From a virus: 51,323 nt of DNA. The notes beneath the pieces are model-generated. The model saw nothing but the letters and a program-made list of their open reading frames with translations. It was not told the origin of the DNA and did no database searches. A program made the translations under genes and the position numbers. The DNA lies in IMG/VR virus record IMGVR_UViG_3300022542_000213, positions 1 to 51,323 of that record, one strand, 5' to 3'. Below are positions 4,958-30,262 of this stretch, in pieces (the first letter of the stretch is position 1; each line of letters starts with the position of its first letter).

Positions 4958-6253
4958 ATGGCAGAATCAAAACCAATTTCAGATAAAGAAGTAAACGACT
5001 TGTTAAAACAAGGTTTCCAAGAAGGAGACACAGTACCTGGTAGAGGGAGACTTTCGCCTTCTGGTACTTTTATAACCGAAGACGCACCTACTAATATAGC
5101 AGAGACAGCAGGTCTTACAGGAGGAGGTAGTTCTAAAACTACAACTACTACTAAGACAGGTGGTACAGGCACAACAGATCCTTTCCTAGATCAATTACAA
5201 CAAAAGCTATTAGGACAAGCAGGAATTATATCATCAGGACAAACAGGTCTTGAAGCTAAAATTCAAGAAGCTATTAGTGGTGTATCAAAATCACAGGAAG
5301 CTAGTGCTGCAGGATTAGAAATTGGTGCAGAAAGAGCTATTAGTGGTGTAAGAGAAGCTGGTGCTCAAAAACTAACTTCTGCTAGAGAATCTCAAAGAGG
5401 ATTTGGTGTTAACCGTGCTGCTTTAAAACAGATAACAGATGAAACTCAAAAATCTGTACGTGATTTAGAAGGTAGAAAACAAGAACTCATCTTATCTGGT
5501 GAAGCTGCCGCTGCTTCTAAAATAGCAGAGTTACAATTTAGTGCTTTAGAATTCCAACAACAAGCGATGCAACAAACATTCTCTAATCTATTACAAGTAG
5601 GTGGATTTGCTATAGAGAAATCAAGAGAAAGTAGATTACAAGCAGCTCAAACAAGTCAAGAGAAACAACAAATTGCTTCAATTGCATTAGAGTTTGGATT
5701 ACCTGTAACAGAAGGAGAAACATTAGATACTATTGTAGCTAAGGCTTCACCTTTTGCAACAGAACAACAAAGACTAAAGATGCAGAAGACTCGAGCTGAA
5801 ATAGCTAGGATTCAAGCAGAAACTCAAAAGGCATTAGCTGGACAAGACTTTGCTTTCGATCAACCATTAGCATCATCAATTGCTAATACATTAAACAACT
5901 TGTTAACTTCAACTGATCCTTTTGCAGCTCAATCTATTGAAGCTATATTAGGAAACGTAGTAGATAAACATGGAGCATCTGCACTTGAACAGATAAAAAG
6001 AGAACAAGAATCATTAAGAAATGAACAATTCTCTTCAGATAATTTAAGGTCTGATATTTCAGAAGATATACAATCTGGTGCTTCTCGTAGAGATATAAGC
6101 GATTCAATTGAATCTAATCAACTTATGAACCCAGAACAAAGAGAAGAGGCAACTAATATTCTAAATGAATTGTCACCTAGACAACCATCATTATTAGATA
6201 GAGCATTTACAGATATTGGTGATACATTATTTGGTTCTCAACGTAATAGATAA
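4958..6253 (+). CDS. Helical internal virion protein candidate
   Basis: A 431-residue, mostly alpha-helical protein rich in Gln, Ala, Ser and Glu, with long low-hydrophobicity helices from about residue 80 to 300 and a Thr/Gly-rich linker near residues 50-70. Together with the next, much larger gene it has the look of the internal or ejection proteins of podovirus-like phages, which enter the cell with the DNA. No enzyme motif was seen. It starts in a TAATATG junction. Confidence 0.45.
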   Translation: MAESKPISDKEVNDLLKQGFQEGDTVPGRGRLSPSGTFITEDAPTNIAETAGLTGGGSSKTTTTTKTGGTGTTDPFLDQLQQKLLGQAGIISSGQTGLEAKIQEAISGVSKSQEASAAGLEIGAERAISGVREAGAQKLTSARESQRGFGVNRAALKQITDETQKSVRDLEGRKQELILSGEAAAASKIAELQFSALEFQQQAMQQTFSNLLQVGGFAIEKSRESRLQAAQTSQEKQQIASIALEFGLPVTEGETLDTIVAKASPFATEQQRLKMQKTRAEIARIQAETQKALAGQDFAFDQPLASSIANTLNNLLTSTDPFAAQSIEAILGNVVDKHGASALEQIKREQESLRNEQFSSDNLRSDISEDIQSGASRRDISDSIESNQLMNPEQREEATNILNELSPRQPSLLDRAFTDIGDTLFGSQRNR

Positions 6254-6255
6254 AT

Positions 6256-9200
6256 ATGGGATTAATAAATCAAACAACAGTTAAACCTAGTGGTAGTTCA
6301 GGAGGTTTCGGTGGGTTTGCTGGTAATAAAAGTAGCTTTACTGGTCTTGGGAGTAGAAATAAACTATCTCCTGATGACCTATTACAAAGAGCTTTACAAG
6401 AAGGAGGAAACTTAGGTCAAGTAGCTCAAGAATTAGTACATCCAGAAACTTCAATACTGTCAACTATAGGAGATGGTTTTAAGAAATCATTTAAGAACTT
6501 TGTTGAAGTTATTTCAGTACCAGGACAAGTAGTAGCTGGTACTATTTCTGGTGATGTTACAATTAAGGAAGCTATACAACAAAATATAGATCCTTCTGAT
6601 GTTATATGGGGAGATAGAAATCCTGACGCTACACTATCACAAAAGGTAGGTGGTTTTTTAGTTCGTACTGCAACAGATATTCTATTAGATCCATTGACAT
6701 ATATAACATTTGGTGGTGCTAAAGGAATCTTAGGATTATCATCAGCCCCAAGAGTTACATTAAGAGGAAAAGCTGCTAAAGAAATAGGATTAGATGATTT
6801 TGCAGCAAGAGAACTAAGTGGTAAAGGACTTGATGTGTTTAAATATGTAAAGAATCTAGAACATCAAGCTGATGGTACAGCTAAAATACTTGATCTAACG
6901 AGTAAATCACTTGATACTACACTTGCTACTAAGAATCTTAAACAATTAAAGGAGAGTGCTAAAGCATTTAATGCTACTAAAACAAGTTCACATGAGTTAA
7001 TAGGTGCAGAACTTAAACAATTACTTGATACTACAGTAGATGCTAAGTTAGGATTTGATTATTCTAAGAGAGCTATGTCTAACCTGTTAGCTAAGAATCC
7101 AGGATTAGTTGAAGAACTAATTGATAAAGGAGGTTTTAAGTTTATGGGTAAGTCTTTATTGTCAGGACAAAAAATGAGATCAGTAATGTCTGTAATTCCT
7201 GGTATGACTCATGTAGATAGACTAACACAGCCAGTAAGAGGAGCTTTAGGTGCTATGTTTGACCCAGCAGTAGTTAAAGTTAATAAACAATTTGTTAGAT
7301 TACCAGAAGAGTTTGTTAATATAAGACAAGCAGGACAAGATTTAGCTACATCATTAGGTGATGAAAGACTAATTAAATTAGCTGATGTAGTCCGAGCTAA
7401 TAAACTGAATGTGAATGAATCACGTTTCTTAACTGCATCTATTGAAGCAGGTAAGTTACCAGTAGATAGTAGACTTGCTAATGCTTATAAACAATTACTT
7501 GGTTTCAATGAAGAAGAGTTTGACTTAATGAAAAGTAGTGGTGTAATGATTAGTAGAAGAGATAATCACGTACCCCATATGCTTGTTAAGAATGATATTG
7601 TAAAGATACCATTCGCAACACCACCTAAAGCTGTAGCAGGTGCTTCTTTCCAAAGGAAGTTAGAAGGAGAAATCTTCCAAATTTCAGATGAAGGATTAGA
7701 AGCATTAGAGACTACACTTACAGGTGGAGATAAAAAACTTATTGAAGAGACTTTTAATGATTTAAAAACAAAAGGTTACGAAATATTTGATGATAATGTA
7801 GTTACTGCTTTAGCTAAACGTTCATTAGATAACACAAGAGTATCTGTGTCAAGACAATTCATAACAAGTGTTGCAGAAGCATTTGGTACATCAGCTGGAA
7901 CAGCTTCTAAAGGGTTTGTCAAGATCAATAGTAAAGCCTTTAAGGAAGAAGGTGGTAAGGTAGCTCGTATGCTAGGAACAGATGGAGAAGATATTGTATA
8001 TCACCCAGCTGTAGCTAAAGCTATAGAGGACTTTGTTGGTGCTGTTAATAGTGATGACTCTACTGCAGTTGTATTGAAAGCATTTGATAATATACAAAAC
8101 CTATGGAAAGCTTCAGTAACAACTATATTCCCTGCCTTCCATGGTAGAAATGGAGTATCCAATGTATTCCTGAACTTTAATGATATAGGATTACATTCAT
8201 TAGACCCAAGACTTCATGCTCAATCTGGTTCACTATTACTAGCTGATAGAAAAGCTAATAGTTTAACACGAAAATCAATGAAACCTGGTAAAGCTGGAGA
8301 ACAAGCTATGGAAGAACTTCAAGAGCTTATGGAGAAGAAAGTATTTACAGACAATACAGGACACTCATGGTCATTTGGAGAACTAAGAACAGTAGCTAAG
8401 AATAATAATGTAGCCTTTTCAAGACAACTAACAGGTGCTTTAGATATTTCACAATCACCAGAGACTTTTATTACTACATTATTTAGAAGTGAAGAACCTA
8501 TATTAAAGAAAGTAGTTAGAAAAGGAGTACCAGTAACACAAGAGTTTGCTCCATTTGCCATTGGACGTGGTATTGGTAGAGCAGTAGAAGAACAAGCAAG
8601 ACTGATTAACTTTCTTGCGAACTTAAATGCTACTGGAGATGTGATGCATGCCGCCCAAAGAACCAAACAATTCCTGTTTGATTATCAAAACTTGACAGGA
8701 TTTGAAAGAAATGTTATGAAGAGGATGATTCCTTTCTATACTTTCACCCGTAAGAACTTAGAACTACAAGTTAAAACACTGTTTAAAACACCAGGACGTA
8801 TATCAGCACAGTTTACAGCACTACAGAACGTAGGAGATGCTATGGCTGGTGGTCAGCTTACTGAAGAACAGAGAGAAGCATTGCCAGATTGGATAAAAGA
8901 TGGTATAGCTATTCTTAAATCTAATAAAGATGGTACAGTAGAGATATTAGGTTCATTAGGTACACCTATAGAACAACCATTCCAACAATTCCAACCTAAT
9001 ATTATGCTAGGGTCTGTATCTCCTTTGATTAGAGCACCTGTAGAACATATGTCTGGTTATTCATTCTTCCATGGTAAAGCCATGAGTGATATTACTAATG
9101 CCTCAGCTTTCAAGAATGCCCCTAAAGTTATTAAAGACTTTATAGGGTTTACAGAAGTTAAGTTTGATAAGGATGGAGAAGAACAAACATGGAATGTAGC

Positions 9201-9982: not shown

Positions 9983-10255
9983 TTATCTTATATATCCCAC
10001 GATATCCTCCTCTCTAACCATAAAGAAGTCCATACCATCTAAATTAAACTTAGTAGTAGAATACTTATTAAAGAGAACCTTATCTCCTACATATACTTTT
10101 ACATTTCCTACAGAGATAACTTCCCCTATTTCTGGCTTATCTTCATAAGAATCTGGATTAATAATTCCATCTACCTCCTCCACTTTAATGCCCTTAATAA
10201 GGACATTATCATGTAAGAGAGTATACTTTGTAATATCTTGATATTTATTCACCAT
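9983..10255 (-). CDS. groES: GroES-like co-chaperonin
   Basis: About 90 residues: LLHDNVLIKGIKVEE, then a variable mobile-loop region, IGEVISVGN, VYVGDKVLFNKYS and a closing VREEDIVGYIR strand. These match the beta-barrel of GroES, which caps GroEL. The first-listed TTG nine bases upstream is less likely than the ATG at 10255, which overlaps the preceding small gene by 11 bases. A GroEL gene lies two genes upstream, so the phage has its own folding pair, probably for capsid or other phage proteins. Confidence 0.8.
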   Translation of the reverse strand: MVNKYQDITKYTLLHDNVLIKGIKVEEVDGIINPDSYEDKPEIGEVISVGNVKVYVGDKVLFNKYSTTKFNLDGMDFFMVREEDIVGYIR

Positions 10256-10412
10256 AACTTTCAATTTTATCTTTTAATATAGCTATTGCCATTGTGATTT
10301 CTTTCAATTCACCAACAGATAAATCTTCTCTTTTTAATTCTATTTGAATTTTAAATAGCATTAGCTCGATTAGATTATTTATTTGTTCTTTTTTTGTTAA
10401 TTTTGGTGGCAT
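10245..10412 (-). CDS. Small helical protein
   Basis: A 55-residue charged helical protein (starts MPPKLTKKEQINNLIELM, ends KDKIESYGE). It fills the gap between the phosphoesterase and groES genes and overlaps the groES start by 11 bases, which supports translational coupling. No family recognised. Confidence 0.6.
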   Translation of the reverse strand: MPPKLTKKEQINNLIELMLFKIQIELKREDLSVGELKEITMAIAILKDKIESYGE

Positions 10413-11187: not shown

Positions 11188-13038
11188 TTATTCTTTTACC
11201 TCTGTGTTTTCAGGTACTCTGACTAGGGCTACCTGTGGTACAATACCAAATTGACTTGAATTCAAGTATGGTTGTAACGCTAAACCTTCTTCTTTCAATA
11301 GTGCATCAATTTTCTCTGATACTTCTTTAACACCTTCATCTACTTTTTGTGGTGCTTCTGCTGTTAGTTCTCCTTCTGGCTTAACAATCTCTTCTGTAGT
11401 AGTTTCTACTACCTCTGCTGTATCTACAGCTACTTCAGTTTCTGTTACTGATCCTACTGTTTTTTTATTATTTGTCATCTTTTCTATTTTATTCATTACG
11501 TAATAATTTGTACTAATAAGTACATTAGCTACTGAAATAGAGTTTTTAATTGCCATCTCAATAACCTTAGTTGGTTCTACAACACCTGCTTTTAACAAAT
11601 CTTCGTACGTATCTGTTAAGGCGTTGTAACCAAAGTTCTCTTCATCTGTTTCTAGAACTTTATCTACCATATATCCTCCATTTTTCTCACAATTCTCTGC
11701 AATCTGTCTAATAACTGCTTCTGAATAACTCCTGAACATGTCATATAGTCTATCATCATCAGCCATCTCATCTCTATATGCTTTCAGTAAGGTAGTTCCA
11801 CCACCTACTACATAACCATCTTTAAGTGATGCCCTAACTGCATTAATTGCATCTTCATAACGATAAATCTTTTCATTAATCTCTAGTGGTGTTGAACCAC
11901 CTACCTTTAGAGTTACAATACCATTAGTTAGTGATGAGATTCTCTGTTTCAGAGTATTATCTTCTGGGTCTTTCTTCAATAACTTCTTTAGTTCTTTAAT
12001 TCTGTCATCTAATTCCTTATTATCTTTCAATACAGGTGTGATAAGTGTCTTATGTGCATCTGAAAATACTCTCTCTGCCATTACAAAGTCCTTTTCAGTT
12101 AGCTTATTAACAATACTACCACTTCTTTCTGATATTACTTTACCTCCTAGATAAACTGCCAAGTCTTTTAATGTAGTATCATCATTCTCTGATACATATG
12201 AGTCCTTTACAAGACATACTTTAATTCCTCCTTCATTGTGGTTAGCTACAAATGTACTAATTGCTTTATCCATAAAGTCTGTTGCAACAATCACTACAGC
12301 ATTATGCCCCATTTCCTTAACAGCTTTAAGTATTGACACTGCTTCTTCTTTATAGTATAGTCTCTTGTCTGTGATTAACACAGGTACATTACTATAAGTT
12401 ACAGAAGGTTTGGAGCTATCCAATAACAATTCCTTATAAATGATACCTCCATTAACTTTAAAGCCATGATCTTCTTCAATCTCTGTCTTATCATTAGCTC
12501 TATTCTCGTGAATAAATACCATACCATCCTCCCCTACTACCTTAATGGTCTTTACAATATCCTTAGCTATCTCTTCATCATTATTAGCAGAGATTTTAGC
12601 AATGTTAAACAAGTCATCATCACCATCAATCTTTGTAGACATCTCTTTAATCGCTGTAATATAATTCTCCCCAAAAGATTCTAACTTCTTAGTTAATTCT
12701 TTAGGATTATAACCATTGTCTAACATCTTTAATCCTTCTTTAGCTAAGAACCTTGACAATAACATAGTAGTTGTTGTACCATCCCCAGCTTCTGTATTAG
12801 TCTTGAATGATGCTGATTTAAGAACTTGTATAATACTATTCTCTAATCTATCTTCTACTTCAATACTCTTTGCAATAGTATATCCATCTTTAGTACTTGA
12901 CAAACTACCACTTTCGTTTTCTATTAGTACTGTGTTCCCTTTAGGTGATAGTGTTTGTACCACAGGATCAGCTACCATATCACAAGCATTGAATATCCTT
13001 GTTACTATATCTTCTCGTTTAAATATCTCTTTATTCAT
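11188..13038 (-). CDS. groEL: GroEL-like chaperonin with long C-terminal extension
   Basis: 616 residues, against about 545 in bacterial GroEL. TLSPKGNTVLIE and AGDGTTTTML (residues 84-93) form the ATP site, with the catalytic Asp86 kept. YEDAINAVRASLKDGYVVGGG carries the second conserved Asp. The apical domain is strongly diverged. The usual Gly-Gly-Met tail is replaced by about 85 residues rich in Glu, Val and Thr that end in a non-repeat segment. The start overlaps the amidase stop (TAATG). Likely folds phage structural proteins; whether the tail is threaded into the cavity is unknown. Confidence 0.9.
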   Translation of the reverse strand: MNKEIFKREDIVTRIFNACDMVADPVVQTLSPKGNTVLIENESGSLSSTKDGYTIAKSIEVEDRLENSIIQVLKSASFKTNTEAGDGTTTTMLLSRFLAKEGLKMLDNGYNPKELTKKLESFGENYITAIKEMSTKIDGDDDLFNIAKISANNDEEIAKDIVKTIKVVGEDGMVFIHENRANDKTEIEEDHGFKVNGGIIYKELLLDSSKPSVTYSNVPVLITDKRLYYKEEAVSILKAVKEMGHNAVVIVATDFMDKAISTFVANHNEGGIKVCLVKDSYVSENDDTTLKDLAVYLGGKVISERSGSIVNKLTEKDFVMAERVFSDAHKTLITPVLKDNKELDDRIKELKKLLKKDPEDNTLKQRISSLTNGIVTLKVGGSTPLEINEKIYRYEDAINAVRASLKDGYVVGGGTTLLKAYRDEMADDDRLYDMFRSYSEAVIRQIAENCEKNGGYMVDKVLETDEENFGYNALTDTYEDLLKAGVVEPTKVIEMAIKNSISVANVLISTNYYVMNKIEKMTNNKKTVGSVTETEVAVDTAEVVETTTEEIVKPEGELTAEAPQKVDEGVKEVSEKIDALLKEEGLALQPYLNSSQFGIVPQVALVRVPENTEVKE

Positions 13039-13595: not shown

Positions 13596-14004
13596 TTAAT
13601 TCTTCTATTCTAATCTTATAAATTTCTATTAATTCTTGATATTCTTCTATAGAATACTTCCTATACCCTTGATCTTTAAGTCTTATTATTTCGTCAAATG
13701 TTTCTTGCCCATATTTCTCTATAAACTTAGTAGCATATATTGCTCCATTACCACCTAAGTTAATGTTACAATAATAACATTGTGCATGTACATTTTCCTC
13801 ATGGAAGTATAATGAAAGTCCTCCACATGCTCTAGGTATCATATGTCCAGCATGTAAACCTTTACCCTCTCCTTTCTTTCCACAAGTGAAACATGTAAAG
13901 TCATCTCTAGTTCTTATGTATAGAGAAAATGTTGTCCAGAATTTCTTCTTCCACCAACCCATAGTATGTTTCTTTGCTTCTTTCCTTAATTTAGTCCTTT
14001 TCAT
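13582..14004 (-). CDS. NinG/Rap-like recombination nuclease
   Basis: 140 residues. WWKKKFWTTFSLYIRTRD, CFTCGKK, LHAGHMIPRACGG, ENVHAQCYYCN and NLGGN follow the order of the lambda NinG (Rap) family, a zinc-binding HNH-type protein involved in resolving recombination intermediates. Two Cys pairs and the AGH motif are intact. It overlaps both neighbours by 14 bases. A role in phage DNA recombination or repair is expected. Confidence 0.8.
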   Translation of the reverse strand: MKRTKLRKEAKKHTMGWWKKKFWTTFSLYIRTRDDFTCFTCGKKGEGKGLHAGHMIPRACGGLSLYFHEENVHAQCYYCNINLGGNGAIYATKFIEKYGQETFDEIIRLKDQGYRKYSIEEYQELIEIYKIRIEELNDKD

Positions 14005-14131
14005 TATCTAATATACGTCTAACAAACTCAGACATCTTAATGCCTAAGCTATTTGCTCCCTTTAATAAGCTATCTTTAGTAGTTTTAGTTACTCTTACTA
14101 TTATTGTTTCTGTCTTTCTTTCTTTACTCAT
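13991..14131 (-). CDS. Ribbon-helix-helix-like small DNA-binding protein
   Basis: 46 residues: a beta strand TETIIVRVTKTTKDSLLK, then GIKMSEFVRRIL, matching the strand-helix-helix layout of CopG/Arc-type regulators. Such proteins bind DNA as dimers and often repress their own operon. It overlaps the next gene by 14 bases and lies just downstream of a structured RNA. Confidence 0.65.
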   Translation of the reverse strand: MSKERKTETIIVRVTKTTKDSLLKGANSLGIKMSEFVRRILDNEKD

Positions 14132-14207
14132 CTTGTTTAGGGTATTTTACGTGGTCTGGGTCTACAGTACCAGCTTCTTCGTATAAATCTTCTATATTAT
14201 ATTTCAT
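14124..14207 (-). CDS. 27-residue acidic peptide
   Basis: A short frame (MKYNIEDLYEEAGTVDPDHV then KYPKQDE) between the structured RNA and the ribbon-helix-helix gene, whose ATG it overlaps. The start is in an AAATTATG context. It could be a leader peptide or a small gene; support is only position and overlap. Confidence 0.35.
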   Translation of the reverse strand: MKYNIEDLYEEAGTVDPDHVKYPKQDE

Positions 14208-14216
14208 AATTTTATT

Positions 14217-14377
14217 TTAATAGGCTAACGGGGAATATATCTATTTAGCTACGGCTTTGGGCGATTCCGTTATTTTCAGTAACAAGAGCCAATCAATAGA
14301 TATTTAGTTATAGTTGTACGTTGCCCTTCTGTGTAAATCTAAAATTTACTTATAATTATCCCCCGCTAACCTATTAA
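14217..14377 (-). ncRNA. Structured RNA closed by a 21-bp helix
   Basis: On the minus strand, 14377-14357 pairs with 14237-14217 over 21 continuous base pairs, three of them G-U wobbles. On the plus strand the same three positions would be A-C mismatches, so the RNA is minus-strand. Inside are a 6-bp hairpin (14333-14349), an 8-bp helix (14295-14302 with 14238-14245), GGCT/AGCC and GTTA/TAAC stems, and a possible GGGC/GCCC pseudoknot. It lies between the lysozyme stop and the small regulator genes. It may be a riboswitch, ribozyme or processing element; no known family was recognised. Confidence 0.7.
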
Positions 14378-14388
14378 GGTTAGCTTCT

Positions 14389-14805
14389 CTACCTATTACT
14401 CCAACATGGTCGAGACCATATCCACGGAGCTGAACCTTCTACACTTAGTAACCACATTCCAGCTTCTATATTATCTTCTGTATCGTAAATGTCAAGTCCT
14501 CTTTCTGCCATGTAAGTCTGCCAGTAATGAGTATTGAATTGGAATAAACCAACATCAACCCCAACGACAGCCTTATAATTTCTTGCATCTTCGAGAAACC
14601 TTGATTCACAATAGATAATATTTCTAGCTAGAACTTCATCTACATTATACTTGATAGCATAATTAGATATAAGTTCATCGGTAGTAAAAGTTTCTTCAAT
14701 AGGTACTGGTGCTTCTGCATATGCAGGAACTCCAGCTATATGTAGGAAGGCAATAAGTATCATAATGATAGTTATCGCCATCCGTCTGGGTAATTCTTCA
14801 CCCAT
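14389..14805 (-). CDS. Secreted SLT-type lysozyme
   Basis: 138 residues. Residues 9-30 are a hydrophobic signal or signal-anchor segment ending AYA. NIIYCESRF contains the catalytic Glu67 (the ESRF motif of lytic transglycosylases), followed by VDVGLFQFN and NIEAGMWLL. The enzyme would cleave the glycan strand of peptidoglycan at the envelope. With the amidase it forms a two-enzyme lysis set. A -10 element six bases upstream places the predicted start on the ATG, making the mRNA leaderless. Confidence 0.8.
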   Translation of the reverse strand: MGEELPRRMAITIIMILIAFLHIAGVPAYAEAPVPIEETFTTDELISNYAIKYNVDEVLARNIIYCESRFLEDARNYKAVVGVDVGLFQFNTHYWQTYMAERGLDIYDTEDNIEAGMWLLSVEGSAPWIWSRPCWSNR

Positions 14806-14811
14806 AATGAT

Positions 14812-14839
14812 ATTATAACATATCTGTTAGGTTTGTCTA
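14812..14839 (-). promoter_or_regulatory. Leaderless promoter for the lysozyme
   Basis: Read on the minus strand: TAGACA (14839-14834), a 16-bp spacer, then TGTTATAAT with the hexamer at 14817-14812. Six bases later comes the ATG at 14805, which is the expected transcription start. The -35 is weak but the extended -10 is strong. Confidence 0.6.
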
Positions 14840-15082: not shown

Positions 15083-15922
15083 TTATTTATTCCACGTAGT
15101 ATATCCAGATGTCTGTTCTAATATATATGACAGTTCATCGTTAGTATACCCTAGTGTTTCTCCTTGTTTTTCAATAATTCTATTCTTATATGGCGAATAA
15201 AGCACCTGCCAATCACCAATAACTTTATGTCCATTCCTTGCTTTACTTATCTCATTCTTAGAGATAGTCTTCCAGTCAATTTCTTTTACATCATACTTAT
15301 ATATAATGTCTGGTTCTGGTTCTATATCCTTAACAATATTTTCATTATATAACTTAGCCAACTTATTATAATGTTTGTCAAGGTCTACTGTTACTGTACC
15401 ACATTGATATAGTCTGTCTTTAATATGCTTACATTCAAGCCAGAATCTATGTAGTCCATCTATACTAGCTACAAATAGATAACCTTTATCTACTCCAAGT
15501 GCATCCATATATGTAGATAATTGACCTACATAACTCTCTCTAGGTGTATTTTCTTCATAGGATCTAATATCAAAGGCATTCTTATTGTTGATAGACTTTA
15601 TCTCAATAGGTAAACCTTCTTTAGTCACAGCATCCATATGATAAGTAATCTTAACACCTTCTCTCTCCATTAAACCACCACCATGTACATTTTGATCGTA
15701 ATCTTCTTGTACAACACCACTATCCTTTAGGACTTGTAGCATTTTATCCTCTACTCCTAAACCTGCCCCCCATTTCAATGTATCATACCATTGTACAGGG
15801 TTGGTAGGTTCTATTTCTTTGAAAGAACAATATATATCATATATTGATTTTCCATAATCAGAAGCATGGAATACTCCATCTCTCCAATTATCATCTAGTT
15901 TTATAGTTAATTTATCTAACAT
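15083..15922 (-). CDS. PD-(D/E)XK nuclease (RecB/Cas4-like)
   Basis: About 279 residues. VKITYHMDAV supplies the acidic residue, LPIEIKSI the E-x-K motif, and ESYVGQLSTYMDALG the Q...Y motif of RecB/Cas4-like exonucleases. Phages use these in DNA recombination and replication, often paired with a single-strand binding protein, and an OB-fold gene lies nearby. The frame opens at a GTG at 15952, but the ATG at 15922 directly after the tiny Cys-rich gene (TAAAATG) fits better. Confidence 0.8.
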   Translation of the reverse strand: MLDKLTIKLDDNWRDGVFHASDYGKSIYDIYCSFKEIEPTNPVQWYDTLKWGAGLGVEDKMLQVLKDSGVVQEDYDQNVHGGGLMEREGVKITYHMDAVTKEGLPIEIKSINNKNAFDIRSYEENTPRESYVGQLSTYMDALGVDKGYLFVASIDGLHRFWLECKHIKDRLYQCGTVTVDLDKHYNKLAKLYNENIVKDIEPEPDIIYKYDVKEIDWKTISKNEISKARNGHKVIGDWQVLYSPYKNRIIEKQGETLGYTNDELSYILEQTSGYTTWNK

Positions 15923-15923
15923 T

Positions 15924-16007
15924 TTATTCGTGCTGATCACATTCTTGATCACAATGACATGGTTCTAATAAACTACAGCCACATTCTAAGCATTCATCAT
16001 CCATCAT
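15924..16007 (-). CDS. 27-residue Cys-rich micro-protein
   Basis: Encodes MMDDECLECGCSLLEPCHCD then QECDQHE: six cysteines and two histidines in 27 residues, enough for one or two zinc sites. It fits tightly between its neighbours, with TAATATG before and TAAAATG after. Likely a small zinc protein; function unknown. Confidence 0.6.
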   Translation of the reverse strand: MMDDECLECGCSLLEPCHCDQECDQHE

Positions 16008-16008
16008 A

Positions 16009-16554
16009 TTATTCTAGTTTAAATGTTTCTTTAATAAGTTCACTCGGTATATCATGTACTTTACTAAGACTACCTGTTTGTATAGACTTCTTCATAATAA
16101 GATATTCATAGGTCTGTTCTTCTTCTGGGTTCTTACTTTCGTATATCTTTTCTCTAAAGTCTTTCTGAGATAACATGGTTGCATCAGCCAACAAATCTGC
16201 TACTTCGTCAACATCATCTGTACCTTTAACAAGAGGTAATAAGTAGTGTAGATTCTTAACTGGTACTTCTGATACAGTCTCTATAGAGAAACCTAATCTT
16301 AATACAAAGTTTTCGTAAATCTGAATTAATCTATTAGCTTCCCCTTTGGACAATCCAATTTCTGGTTGTTGTAAATACTCATTCCAAGTATCTATACCTT
16401 CACCCACTACGTTCTTGAAACTCTCATCTTGATCCAAGTGATAAAGCATACGCCCCATTAATACGAAGTTCTGCTTTGCATTTACCACAAGTTCTAATAA
16501 GAATTTATGGTAATCATAAGGTGTATATTCAACTGTTATACTATTCTCCTCCAT
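16009..16554 (-). CDS. Hypothetical helical phage protein
   Basis: About 181 residues, largely helical. IGLSKGEANRLIQIYENFV and VPVKNLHYLLPLVK resemble segments of phage proteins that look like helix-turn-helix or ParB-type domains, but the match is not firm. A TTG at 16566 also starts the frame; the ATG at 16554 overlaps the previous gene by 14 bases and is preferred. Its place between the nuclease and OB-fold genes suggests a DNA-metabolism role. Confidence 0.5.
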   Translation of the reverse strand: MEENSITVEYTPYDYHKFLLELVVNAKQNFVLMGRMLYHLDQDESFKNVVGEGIDTWNEYLQQPEIGLSKGEANRLIQIYENFVLRLGFSIETVSEVPVKNLHYLLPLVKGTDDVDEVADLLADATMLSQKDFREKIYESKNPEEEQTYEYLIMKKSIQTGSLSKVHDIPSELIKETFKLE

Positions 16555-18153: not shown

Positions 18154-18168
18154 GTCTGCGTTCGTTAA
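18154..18168. repeat. 15-base exact repeat, copy 1
   Basis: GTCTGCGTTCGTTAA, identical to 30498-30512. This copy lies between the helicase stop and the zinc-domain start in the leftward mRNA, overlapping the helicase stop codon. Confidence 0.6.
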
Positions 18169-20684
18169 AATTGATTTACAATATCCTCTTCTATATCATC
18201 TGCGTTGTTCAGTTCTTGAGTGAAGTCGGTGAAATCAGAATCCCCCATCTTACCTGTTTCGGGACGGAAACTAAACACCTCTGACTTCATTTCCCCCTTA
18301 TTCTTTGCTACATTTACTTCTATACCCTCATCATGCTTGTTTATAAGCACTACACACTCTGGGTCTTGTGATAAGCTAGAACTACCTTTAAGGTCGTCTA
18401 AATTCGGTTTGCGTTCTAAAACAGCACCAGCTTGTTCTATCTTTCTTATATGAGTTACAATGATAATGATAATACCATGCTCCTCACCTATTCTTTTTAA
18501 GTTTTGTAGGGTGTTAGATATTTCGGCTTCTCTCGATCCACCAACATGTCTAACTAAGTAGTCTAAGTGATCTACAATAACAACTTTAGTGTCAAATAGT
18601 CTCTTGGACTTTATAATAGTGTCTATTATCTCGTCTTTCTTTGGTACAGCAAAATACAATGGCTTGTTAATACAATCCTGTATAATTTCATCCCACTCAT
18701 TTTCATTAGTAAATCCAAAGTCTTCGTTAGTCTTATCATACCTAACATTCATAAATCGTTTACCCACAGCATCAATCCCTCTTTCAAAGGGCATTATAAG
18801 AACAGGGGTGTCTTGATCTAATATATCATTAGCTACATTTAAGACATAAGATGTATTGTGTGTAACAGTAAAGCTATCAAGTAAATATAAGCCATCTCCG
18901 TCAAGTGTAAAGCCAAAGTATTCACCAACACCTAATTCTTCTACATCTAATTTGGAAGTAAGCCAATTCTTTTTACAACAAAAATTACTTTTCTTTCTAT
19001 CAAGTCTAGTTGGAATTAATGATATATCACCAGTAATATAAATTCTATTATATTCACCAGTAAAATTAATTGATTTAATACTTTTCTTTGTTTTTGTTAT
19101 TTTAGCTCTAAAACCTAACGATCTAGCTAAGAATACAATATCATTCGATAATTGAGTATTCTTCTGTATAATCTCAAAGTATTCACCTCGTTCAGTTTTA
19201 GATAGTGACCCATCAGTATCAATTAGCCCAGCTAATACTTCTAATCTACTTTGTCTATCATTTATTTTATATTCCTTTGGAATATGTTTGTTATTTAGTA
19301 AATTATAATATCTTAAATTATTAAGAATATAATTACTACCTTTCTTTCTGCTTGGACTAATCATATCCATCGTTATAGAATTATTGTCCTTTTGTTCTCT
19401 TACTGTAACATCTAAGTCACATACACACGCATAATGATATATAAAGTCTTTTATATACTCATCTTCTGTTGTGATCTGTGTCTTGCTAGAAGTACCATCA
19501 CCTAACCACAAACCGACAAAGTATGGATCTAATTTTATATCTTGATAATCAAAATCCACACTTGTTTTCCAACCTCGGTAATGTCTTCTTGTTTCTGGTT
19601 TAATCTTTAAAAAGTCTTCTACAGACATTTCTTTATCAACTATCTTCGTTTTCTTTTTCTTCTTATCCCAGCTATCTTTTTTAAGAGAAAGGATATGACT
19701 TTTATTTACATCATAATATTCATTTCTTTCATGAATACGATACATTTCTTCTTTTCCATTCGCTAAAGATAATACTGTTCGTGGTTTGGATTCTATCCCC
19801 ATTAGCTTATCACCAATAACTATTTCTTCAACATTCTTAATAGAACCATCAGACATTAATAGTTTTGTACCTTTAGCATGGCATTTTCCACTATTAGTTT
19901 TACCAGACACGACAATAAGCCAATCCTTCTCCATAGTAACCTTTGGGAAGAATTTTGTTGTAACTGTATTTTTAGTTGGGGTGCGTAGACTTTCAATAAT
20001 GTCTCCTAACCCCTTGAATTGATAGTTATAGTAAGGTTTTGCGTTTTCCAGCAATTCTCTATAGTCATCTTTAGTATATGACTTAAAGAACTCATTAGCA
20101 TCTTTTATTTCATCTGGGTAACATACTTCAAAAGACTTGTCAATACCTAGTCTATCAGCCATCTTTAAAGCACTAGCTTTTCCACCTTCATCATTATCGT
20201 AAGCTATATATATCTTTGGTATGTTATCTAACTGTTCTATCCATACACCAAAACTATCCTTGCCAAAAGCTGGACTTACGACATTCTTATACCCAACTTG
20301 CCATGCAGAAATGAGATCAAATTCTCCTTCCACGACTAAAACCCCCCCTTTCTTTAAGCCGAGATCTATACCTTCATCATTGAAGATCCATGTCTCTGCT
20401 CCATACTCGGAGGAGTATTTTTGTTTCTTTGGGTTTAAGAACCTATACTTAACATTAATAAGTTCACCTCTTTTGTAAATCGGGATTGATATGGCATCTC
20501 TCTTTTCGTCATAACCTAATTTGAAGTGTTTGATTGATTCATCAGAAAGCCCTCTCTCATTACGTAAGTAATCTTGGGCTATCTCATTATTGTTAAGTTT
20601 TTCAATGTACTCGTCAATCTTCGTCTCATCAGGTCGTTTATAATCAATGCCAACGGTTTCCCGCATTGATTTTATTATATTCAT
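18165..20684 (-). CDS. Toprim-DnaB-type replicative helicase with intein
   Basis: 839 residues before splicing, about 496 after. Residues 1-60 are helical. VVEGEFD (Glu119) and AYDNDEGG (Asp163, Asp165) form a Toprim primase site. The RecA-like helicase starts near 250, and its Walker A (SGKTNSGK, 260-267) is cut by an intein, resuming with T611. KVVIVDHLDYL is Walker B, and IIIIVTHIRK and DLKGSSSLSQDPE follow as later helicase motifs. It unwinds DNA and, with the separate zinc domain, primes the lagging strand. Activity requires protein splicing. Confidence 0.9.
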   Translation of the reverse strand: MNIIKSMRETVGIDYKRPDETKIDEYIEKLNNNEIAQDYLRNERGLSDESIKHFKLGYDEKRDAISIPIYKRGELINVKYRFLNPKKQKYSSEYGAETWIFNDEGIDLGLKKGGVLVVEGEFDLISAWQVGYKNVVSPAFGKDSFGVWIEQLDNIPKIYIAYDNDEGGKASALKMADRLGIDKSFEVCYPDEIKDANEFFKSYTKDDYRELLENAKPYYNYQFKGLGDIIESLRTPTKNTVTTKFFPKVTMEKDWLIVVSGKTNSGKCHAKGTKLLMSDGSIKNVEEIVIGDKLMGIESKPRTVLSLANGKEEMYRIHERNEYYDVNKSHILSLKKDSWDKKKKKTKIVDKEMSVEDFLKIKPETRRHYRGWKTSVDFDYQDIKLDPYFVGLWLGDGTSSKTQITTEDEYIKDFIYHYACVCDLDVTVREQKDNNSITMDMISPSRKKGSNYILNNLRYYNLLNNKHIPKEYKINDRQSRLEVLAGLIDTDGSLSKTERGEYFEIIQKNTQLSNDIVFLARSLGFRAKITKTKKSIKSINFTGEYNRIYITGDISLIPTRLDRKKSNFCCKKNWLTSKLDVEELGVGEYFGFTLDGDGLYLLDSFTVTHNTSYVLNVANDILDQDTPVLIMPFERGIDAVGKRFMNVRYDKTNEDFGFTNENEWDEIIQDCINKPLYFAVPKKDEIIDTIIKSKRLFDTKVVIVDHLDYLVRHVGGSREAEISNTLQNLKRIGEEHGIIIIIVTHIRKIEQAGAVLERKPNLDDLKGSSSLSQDPECVVLINKHDEGIEVNVAKNKGEMKSEVFSFRPETGKMGDSDFTDFTQELNNADDIEEDIVNQF
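18855..19883 (-). mobile_element. Intein with LAGLIDADG homing endonuclease
   Basis: Residues 268-610 of the helicase (343 aa). It begins with Cys268 (CHAKGTKLLMSDGSIKNVEE) and ends VTHN610, followed by extein Thr611. FVGLWLGDG and LAGLIDTDG are the two endonuclease motifs. Insertion after the Lys of the P-loop splits the ATP site, a common intein location. The intein would excise itself and could home into intein-free helicase genes. Confidence 0.93.
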
Positions 20685-22250: not shown

Positions 22251-22357
22251 CCCCACAACCATATTGCTGTGGGGTTGACTTCTATGTCAAAAATTTCTTA
22301 CTGAATATTACGTAACAGGATATTTTATAACTTCATCCCTCCTCTAAACTATTCAGT
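22251..22357. other. Gap with two inverted repeats
   Basis: CCCCACA (22251-22257) pairs with TGTGGGG (22268-22274), and ACTGAATA (22300-22307) pairs with TATTCAGT (22350-22357). They lie between the kinase-phosphatase stop and the endonuclease promoter. The first may act as a weak terminator. Confidence 0.45.
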
Positions 22358-22422
22358 GTCTTATATACTATACTATTGTGTTTCAAAAGTCAAGTGTATA
22401 AGTAGTTGTGATACAATCTATC

Positions 22423-23316
22423 TTAAAAGTCAACCCCATCCCCACAGTCTACCGTTGCTATCTTATGTTTCTGGTACATCCTAATCACAGAAGGTCTATC
22501 ATCATAAGCTATTCTAACGTCATCAACTCCAAACATTTTTAACATATCCTCTTTAACCTCTGTATCAGGTCTAAAGTCATTTTTAGCCCTCATAAACATA
22601 CATTTAGCCCTATCTAGTATTTCGGGGCAATGTTTGTTAAACCATTTAATTGTTTCTGCCCTATACTTTTCATTACGTCCAGTTACTAAGAATAGATCAT
22701 AACCACTATTATCAAGTATTTCTTCAATTTCATCCCAAACATCCTCTCTGAAAGTATCTAAGTTACATTCAGCAAAAAAGGATTCCCAATCTTTATGTTC
22801 TCCTTGTACATGCTTAATCCTTTCTCCTATATCAGCTAAAGTACCATCAATATCAACTAGCATTACGCCATTCCATGAAATCCACATATGATTCTTTAAA
22901 GCATCTTTCCAAATTACATGATCCCCGACTGGATTATCTCTTTCTCCATCTCTTTTTACACAATCAGTAACTATAACATGTTTAGTTTCTAAAGTATGAA
23001 AATCAGCACCATTTTTTTGGGCTAATTTAAACCATCTCTGCCTATCTACAGGTTTTAAATTATCATTGTCTACAATACAACTAATACCATGACTTAAACA
23101 TTTATCAATTATACTTTCTTGGGAATTTCTTACTTTAAACTCCTTGAAAGAACCCTTTTTATCAAGAAACAAACTTAATCTTAAATCGTCAAGACTTGTT
23201 CTGAAAATACTATTTTTAGATCTCTTGACTAAATCTTTAGCCATTGTGGTTTTACCACTAGCTGTTAAGCCTTTCATCATATATAATTTAGGCATTGTTT
23301 TTCTAATTGCTATCAT
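22423..23316 (-). CDS. pseT: Polynucleotide kinase-phosphatase (T4 Pnkp-like)
   Basis: 297 residues. The N-terminal kinase has the P-loop GLTASGKTT (16-24) and RTSLDDLR. The C-terminal half is a haloacid dehalogenase phosphatase with DIDGTLAD (155-162), LFLVTGRN and AYDDRPSV. T4 Pnkp adds 5' phosphate and removes 3' phosphate, preparing nicked tRNA or DNA for ligation. No RNA ligase is seen in the window, but a phage tRNA gene lies nearby. It is two genes downstream of the tRNA in the leftward direction. Confidence 0.9.
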   Translation of the reverse strand: MIAIRKTMPKLYMMKGLTASGKTTMAKDLVKRSKNSIFRTSLDDLRLSLFLDKKGSFKEFKVRNSQESIIDKCLSHGISCIVDNDNLKPVDRQRWFKLAQKNGADFHTLETKHVIVTDCVKRDGERDNPVGDHVIWKDALKNHMWISWNGVMLVDIDGTLADIGERIKHVQGEHKDWESFFAECNLDTFREDVWDEIEEILDNSGYDLFLVTGRNEKYRAETIKWFNKHCPEILDRAKCMFMRAKNDFRPDTEVKEDMLKMFGVDDVRIAYDDRPSVIRMYQKHKIATVDCGDGVDF

Positions 23317-24196: not shown

Positions 24197-24267
24197 CTCT
24201 CTCTGAAGGAATCGAACCTTCGTATTTCGGGCTTCAACCGAACGCTTTACCACTAAGCTAAAAGAGA
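24197..24267 (-). tRNA. tRNA-Phe (anticodon GAA)
   Basis: Full cloverleaf on the minus strand: 7-bp acceptor (24267-24261 with 24204-24198, one G-U), D arm GCTT/AAGC, anticodon stem TTCGG/CCGAA with loop TTGAAGC, and T arm GAAGG/CCTTC with loop TTCGATT. The discriminator is G rather than the usual A, and CCA is not encoded. It is embedded between protein genes of the leftward transcript. Confidence 0.93.
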
Positions 24268-29901: not shown

Positions 29902-30262
29902 TAAGACCTCCTATATAGTTGAATTATTAAAGAACATTCTTGCTTAATATTAAAAACAAGATATAATGGGTTCTAGTACAAGAATTGTTAAAGCAATTAC
30001 TGACTGACTACCAGAGCATCTAGTTACCACAACTGGTTTGCTAGAAGGTGTTTTTGAGTAGAGATAAGTACCTCACGCTGATTGTTATAGTCAACTGACA
30101 TCAATCTTGTTTCTCTTTCCCATCACTCTTGACAAACGGATCATAGACTTTGACCATAGTACCGATGCCCACTATATCTTATTTTCAAATGACTTTTTAC
30201 TAATAAACTTGTCGGAGGGTATTTACATCAAAGTAACGTACCCTCAAACAAATCTACTATAC
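29902..30262 (-). other. Long leader of the SD-led cluster, no gene seen
   Basis: Between the promoter at 30267-30305 and the first ATG. It contains a 7-bp hairpin (30215-30245, GAGGGTA/TACCCTC with an inner TTAC/GTAA) and weaker pairings around 29985-30050 (AATTG/CAATT, AGTT/AACT). No convincing reading frame was found. It may be a regulatory leader. Confidence 0.45.

Follow-up and report, generated by a model that had tools for sequence, protein, structure and literature searches.

The pRNA of phi29-type phages is an RNA of ~170 nt whose ends are paired in a long helix, and to our knowledge it is known only from small phi29-like podophages. Other phage noncoding RNAs, among them the stable RNAs C and D of T4, ROOL and GOLLD, lie near tRNAs and late genes and are without known function. 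The two T4 RNAs (rnaC and rnaD, or species 1 and 2; ~140 and 119 nt) are encoded at the end of a tRNA array with 6 nt between them, and late expression of both has been described (PMC9697503). ROOL and GOLLD are carried by phages and prophages, often near tRNA islands, and GOLLD members are often >800 nt in length (PMC12286853).

We examined a 161-nt RNA element (14217-14377, minus strand) in a 51-kb IMG/VR contig of an uncultivated phage, the whole of which we call the window. The 5' arm of the element (TTAATAGGTTAGCGGGGGATA, 14377-14357) pairs with the 3' arm (TATTCCCCGTTAGCCTATTAA, 14237-14217) at 21/21 contiguous positions, forming a closing helix of 18 Watson-Crick and three G-U pairs (14369/14225, 14366/14228 and 14360/14234). 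All three G-U positions are A-C mismatches on the plus strand, which confirms the original prediction that the arms are fully complementary on the minus strand only. In a local helix scan the closing helix scored 45.4, while none of 300 order-1, block-shuffled strand-windows of 51 kb reached 45.3 (maximum 43.2; 7 helices ≥40 in total). The whole RNA folded at −43.7 kcal/mol (z = −3.97), compared with z = −1.43 for the plus strand of the same stretch. A hairpin (GCTAACC-TTAATA-GGTTAGC; 14366-14385, minus) also takes in part of the 5' arm and would form in competition with the closing helix.

The window RNA resembles phi29-type pRNA in its size and in the long helix that pairs its ends, whereas the terminase large subunit of the phage is of the ordinary kind and the RNA has no Rfam match. 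ROOL and GOLLD are far more elaborate. The predicted folds of the T4 RNAs, unlike the window RNA, have no long closing helix; rnaC carries a T-arm-like hairpin (GGGTTCGAATCCC) that the window RNA does not, and rnaC and rnaD sit in a tRNA array while the window RNA lies in the gap between a lysozyme gene and a small ORF, although other elements closed by a long helix (hereafter clamped elements) do sit in such arrays. We rejected the T4 RNAs as homologues because they have no long closing helix, our searches found no sequence similarity, and the best match to the model of the tRNA-elbow-like family described below (9.4 bits) fell outside rnaC and rnaD.

That the RNA belongs to no recognised class, as first proposed, held up in the database search: at the gathering score, Rfam 15 matched one tRNA only in the whole window (24197-24267, its only tRNA), with neither ROOL nor GOLLD matched, and a lax search of 13990-14600 gave a single chance match outside the RNA. 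The element occurs as a single copy in the genome. A DNA similarity search of phages with the RNA returned AT-rich chance pieces only, mostly over the downstream ORF, and no DNA similarity to it was found among the relatives described below. Neither the exact 5'-arm pattern nor a gapped pseudoknot pattern occurred in IMG/VR, and when 37 whole records and 0.84 Mb of relatives' sequence were searched with a single-sequence covariance model, the matches were confined to the RNA itself, the strand opposite it and hairpins due to chance. Thus no sequence homologue of the RNA or its interior was found by DNA search, patterns or covariance model; a single-sequence search with the lysozyme found no relatives.

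The neighbours of the RNA, predicted to be a lysozyme gene and a small DNA-binding gene, proved to be an SLT-type lysozyme (PF01464; 14389..14805, minus), which lies directly upstream and stops 11 nt short of the RNA, and a NikA-like protein of 46 aa (PF21983; 13991-14131). Between the RNA and the NikA-like gene is a 27-codon ORF (14124..14207, minus) that starts 9 nt past the RNA. A promoter-like site (TAGACA-16-TATAAT with TG before the second hexamer; 14812..14839, minus; 11/12 consensus bases) precedes the lysozyme gene, with such sites no more numerous in the region than by chance, and no intrinsic terminator-like site was found from there to the RNA; this layout makes co-transcription of the RNA with the lysozyme gene plausible.

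No minus-strand ORF of ≥20 aa is present in the 161-nt RNA, including its 119-nt interior (14238..14356), and plus-strand ORF overlap is confined to the 4-nt tail of a 38-aa TTG-start ORF. The interior alone showed no fold excess over shuffles (nested-fold z = +0.74), so the internal helices of the original prediction were not confirmed, and the pseudoknot it had suggested amounts to four complementary bases (GGGC at 14326-14323 with GCCC at 14262-14259). A possible hairpin (GUAAAUUUUAGAUUUAC; 14333..14349, minus; MFE and centroid) and a possible 9-bp helix stacked under the closing helix (14303-14295 with 14245-14237, minus; 14237..14303; MFE) are predictions without comparative support. Because proven members of the tRNA-elbow-like family score alike by the same measure (z = −0.36, +0.96 and −1.02), the low interior score is weak evidence against a functional interior.

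Related uncultivated phages were recruited via their terminase, GroEL, lysozyme and nuclease genes (~30-65% protein identity; longest contigs 26-53 kb) and scanned for closing helices. About two dozen clamped elements were found, with helices of 15-31 bp and lengths of ~90-240 nt (23 in related phages vs 1 in order-1 shuffles). With a symmetric, strand-neutral score of ≥40, there were 19 in 688 kb of the clade, while unrelated phages that carry GroEL had 3 in 422 kb. The window itself holds a second element in a gene gap (29950..30188, minus; 239 nt, 21-bp helix, score 42.4, z = −2.7) and a third, weaker one (22270..22438, minus; 169 nt, 15-bp helix, z = −4.6 with flanks). Elsewhere, a 22-bp helix closes an element between lysozyme and GroEL genes (L035 12448-12626), and further elements lie at L047 7540-7690 and 8866-9055, L148 1517-1690 and L175/L177 13542-13642. 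Three elements of L038 are inside or abut a tRNA array (6052-6174, which is 5-6 nt from the tRNAs on either side, 6617-6738 and 8136-8293), and a fourth is at 15847-16020; those starting at 6052, 6617 and 15847 have outer helix sequence in common while their interiors differ. Two elements of L075 (8859-9053 and 9060-9172) are 6 nt apart between tRNA-Pro and tRNA-Asn, the second ending 5 nt before tRNA-Asn. The arrangement of rnaC and rnaD in T4 resembles that of the L075 and L038 elements.

In one tRNA array, a clamped element (L065 2461-2585) contains an intact T-arm sequence (ATAGGTTCGAATCCTAT) with no normal tRNA around it and is possibly a degenerate or rearranged tRNA. ARAGORN run on doubled elements, with the idea of a circularly permuted tRNA, gave matches that were non-specific at a lax threshold and shifted with trimming. 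In two related phages, an inverted repeat of 28-30 bp lies within a conserved coding gene (L042 2507-2816 and L060 8449-8752).

Inverted repeats acting as DNA should depart from complementarity by G-T and by A-C equally often. We counted wobbles on the gene strand of 18 oriented elements, with strand assigned by hand from the direction of flanking genes or tRNAs and ambiguous elements excluded, and found G-U and A-C at 55:16 (p ~1e-6 against base composition), or 43:13 (p = 4e-5) without the window RNA and the tRNA-elbow-like family. This excess, together with the recurrence of the elements in relatives, indicates that selection acts on RNA pairing across the clade. The window RNA is an orphan member of this recurring class of clamped RNAs in the phage group: a real RNA-level feature of an uncatalogued class, which together with its clade-mates provides a hallmark for searches: a closing helix on the gene strand that is long and tolerates wobbles.

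In the relative G004, the same kind of lysozyme gene is followed directly by an RNA (L034 12403-12615, minus) that carries the motifs GTGGCGGAATAGGTAGACGC and GGTGACTATACGAG. This motif pair was found in 27 IMG/VR contigs and 3 bacterial assemblies, and it led to a family (R1) that includes L034 12403-12615, L180 11737-11945 (plus), L181-L210 and L211-L219. R1 members have in common a closing helix, which has at least 7 bp and mostly more, and a D-arm similar to that of tRNA-Leu. They also share an insert, folded in many cases into an H-type pseudoknot, and a T-arm with a loop insertion (GGUG..CAAAUCC) that is lacking in Leuconostoc phages; some reside in tRNA arrays. Across 27 distinct sequences, 19 pairs were changed on both sides and 91.6% of cells paired, giving a covariation score of 0.588 vs 0.164 for shuffled and ≤0.159 for slid alignments. 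The alignment omits the variable inserts, and its sequences were picked by exact motifs, so that the motif columns could not vary; the covariation resides in the closing helix and T-stem.

The R1 model matched Leuconostoc phage Ln-9, Lactobacillus phage phiJL-1 and Liquorilactobacillus UCMA21115, and further matches were to Weissella WC29P3, Leuconostoc phiLM33_01, Lactobacillus 8014-B2, Enterococcus EFDG1 and Bacillus phi3T. In Bacillus phage SPP1, a 44.8-bit match occupies the gap that separates head genes 9 and 11 (L214 1189-1313, equal to X89721 3416-3540). Members in related phages scored 23-120 bits. No annotated features lay under the matches in isolated phages, Rfam searches of R1-bearing loci returned tRNAs plus one chance match only, and we found no description of the family among open-access papers. 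R1 is a tRNA-elbow-like RNA family of phages, conserved and covarying, with no entry in Rfam 15. Following up the window RNA led to a covarying RNA that two laboratory phages, SPP1 and phi3T, possess, which makes its expression and deletion directly testable. Some members have TGTACTTTGAAAAnTnnATA in the 5' arm (L195/L034; also L211 at about 2500-2526), a sequence that we take to resemble Firmicutes rRNA spacer leaders and that could be an antitermination or processing signal.

With slightly better than even odds (probability of roughly 0.52), we read the window element as the gene of a ~160-nt phage noncoding RNA, part of the minus-strand lysozyme-operon transcript, with the helix serving as a processing stalk and end clamp. 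The RNA would be transcribed as one unit with the lysozyme operon, and the 21-bp helix would bring its two ends together. The stalk, a suitable double-stranded substrate for an RNase III-type enzyme, would then be cut by such an enzyme or be the point to which the ends are trimmed, and the clamp would block exonucleases. The released interior would persist as a stable independent RNA, as for T4 RNAs C and D, and would presumably be the functional part. Consistent with this reading, the helix exceeds chance, the minus strand has no ORF, the element fits tightly between genes and RNA pairing bears a clade-wide mark of selection; in addition, several clamped elements occupy tRNA-array slots and the post-lysozyme slot of G004 holds an RNA with proven covariation. 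Counting against it are the interior z of +0.74 and the lack of an interior homologue in any collection searched. A broader and distinctly more tentative version places the window RNA among the cargos of a modular phage system: a clamp of 15-31 bp with RNA-selected wobbles would excise and protect diverse noncoding RNAs, the new tRNA-elbow mimic included, and would do so from late operons as well as tRNA arrays in many phages.

The main rival, which we regard as possible but doubtful, is an intercistronic processing or insulating stem, in which the helix alone matters and the interior is no more than spacer; the helix would be cut, or would stall decay, at the junction of the lysozyme message with the small genes that follow. 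The interior, being without fold excess or conservation, speaks for such a stem. Moreover, in a distant relative, tandem 25-bp inverted repeats with related arms (L179 5648-5947 and 5951-6250) each enclose a small ORF and not a noncoding RNA, so a clamp can carry different cargo; we take these arms (TTGAAAACTGGATA) to recall the Firmicutes rRNA leader/boxA region. However, in most other clamped elements the enclosed 50-200 nt show no clear ORF, and across the class the interiors have a slightly negative z (mean −0.61, p = 0.009). Several elements also lie in tRNA arrays, where there is no message to insulate, and the element in the same slot of G004 has a conserved interior.

An improbable alternative to the noncoding RNA of its own class is that the element is a highly diverged R1 member whose D-arm and T-arm consensus is no longer recognisable. 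Both are phage-borne, the window RNA shares the post-lysozyme slot of the G004 member, and it has the long closing helix of most members (21 bp). The best alignment of the R1 model within 13900-14700 is, moreover, exactly 14217-14378 on the minus strand. Yet this alignment scored 8.3 bits with filters off, the score coming from the helix, and default filters left nothing there, against the 23-120 bits of members in related phages; by this test the RNA is not a detectable R1 member. The D-arm consensus GUGGCGGAAUAGGUAGACGC is absent next to the closing helix, with D-stem positions unpaired in the alignment, and the T-arm GCAAGGUG..CAAAUCCUUGC is absent next to the 3' arm, from the sequence and the model match alike. 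Whereas R1 members carry GUGGCGGAAUAGGUAGACGC, a pseudoknot-prone insert and the T-arm (GGUG[insert]CAAAUCC), the window RNA is without all three.

It is very improbable that the arms are instead the terminal inverted repeats of a MITE-like small mobile element: the 21-bp inverted repeats with TTAA at both ends would suit one, but the element is single-copy with no similar copy elsewhere, its flanks show no target duplication, and the G-U bias on the gene strand is class-wide. Least probable of all is a chance inverted repeat, with which the unremarkable interior would agree, since none of the 300 shuffled strand-windows gave a helix as good, excluding it to the level of the shuffles, and clamped elements are enriched in relatives.

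Several other features of the window were observed. An exact copy of a 10-mer from the R1 D-loop (AATAGGTAGA; 14388-14397, minus) is found at the lysozyme stop, 10 nt upstream of the RNA, probably by chance. The phage encodes a GroEL homologue (11188-13038, minus), and a 93-aa ORF (9983-10264) lies where a GroES-like partner would sit. The replicative helicase gene (18165-20684, minus) contains an apparent intein, with relatives matching in two pieces that flank an extra middle segment.
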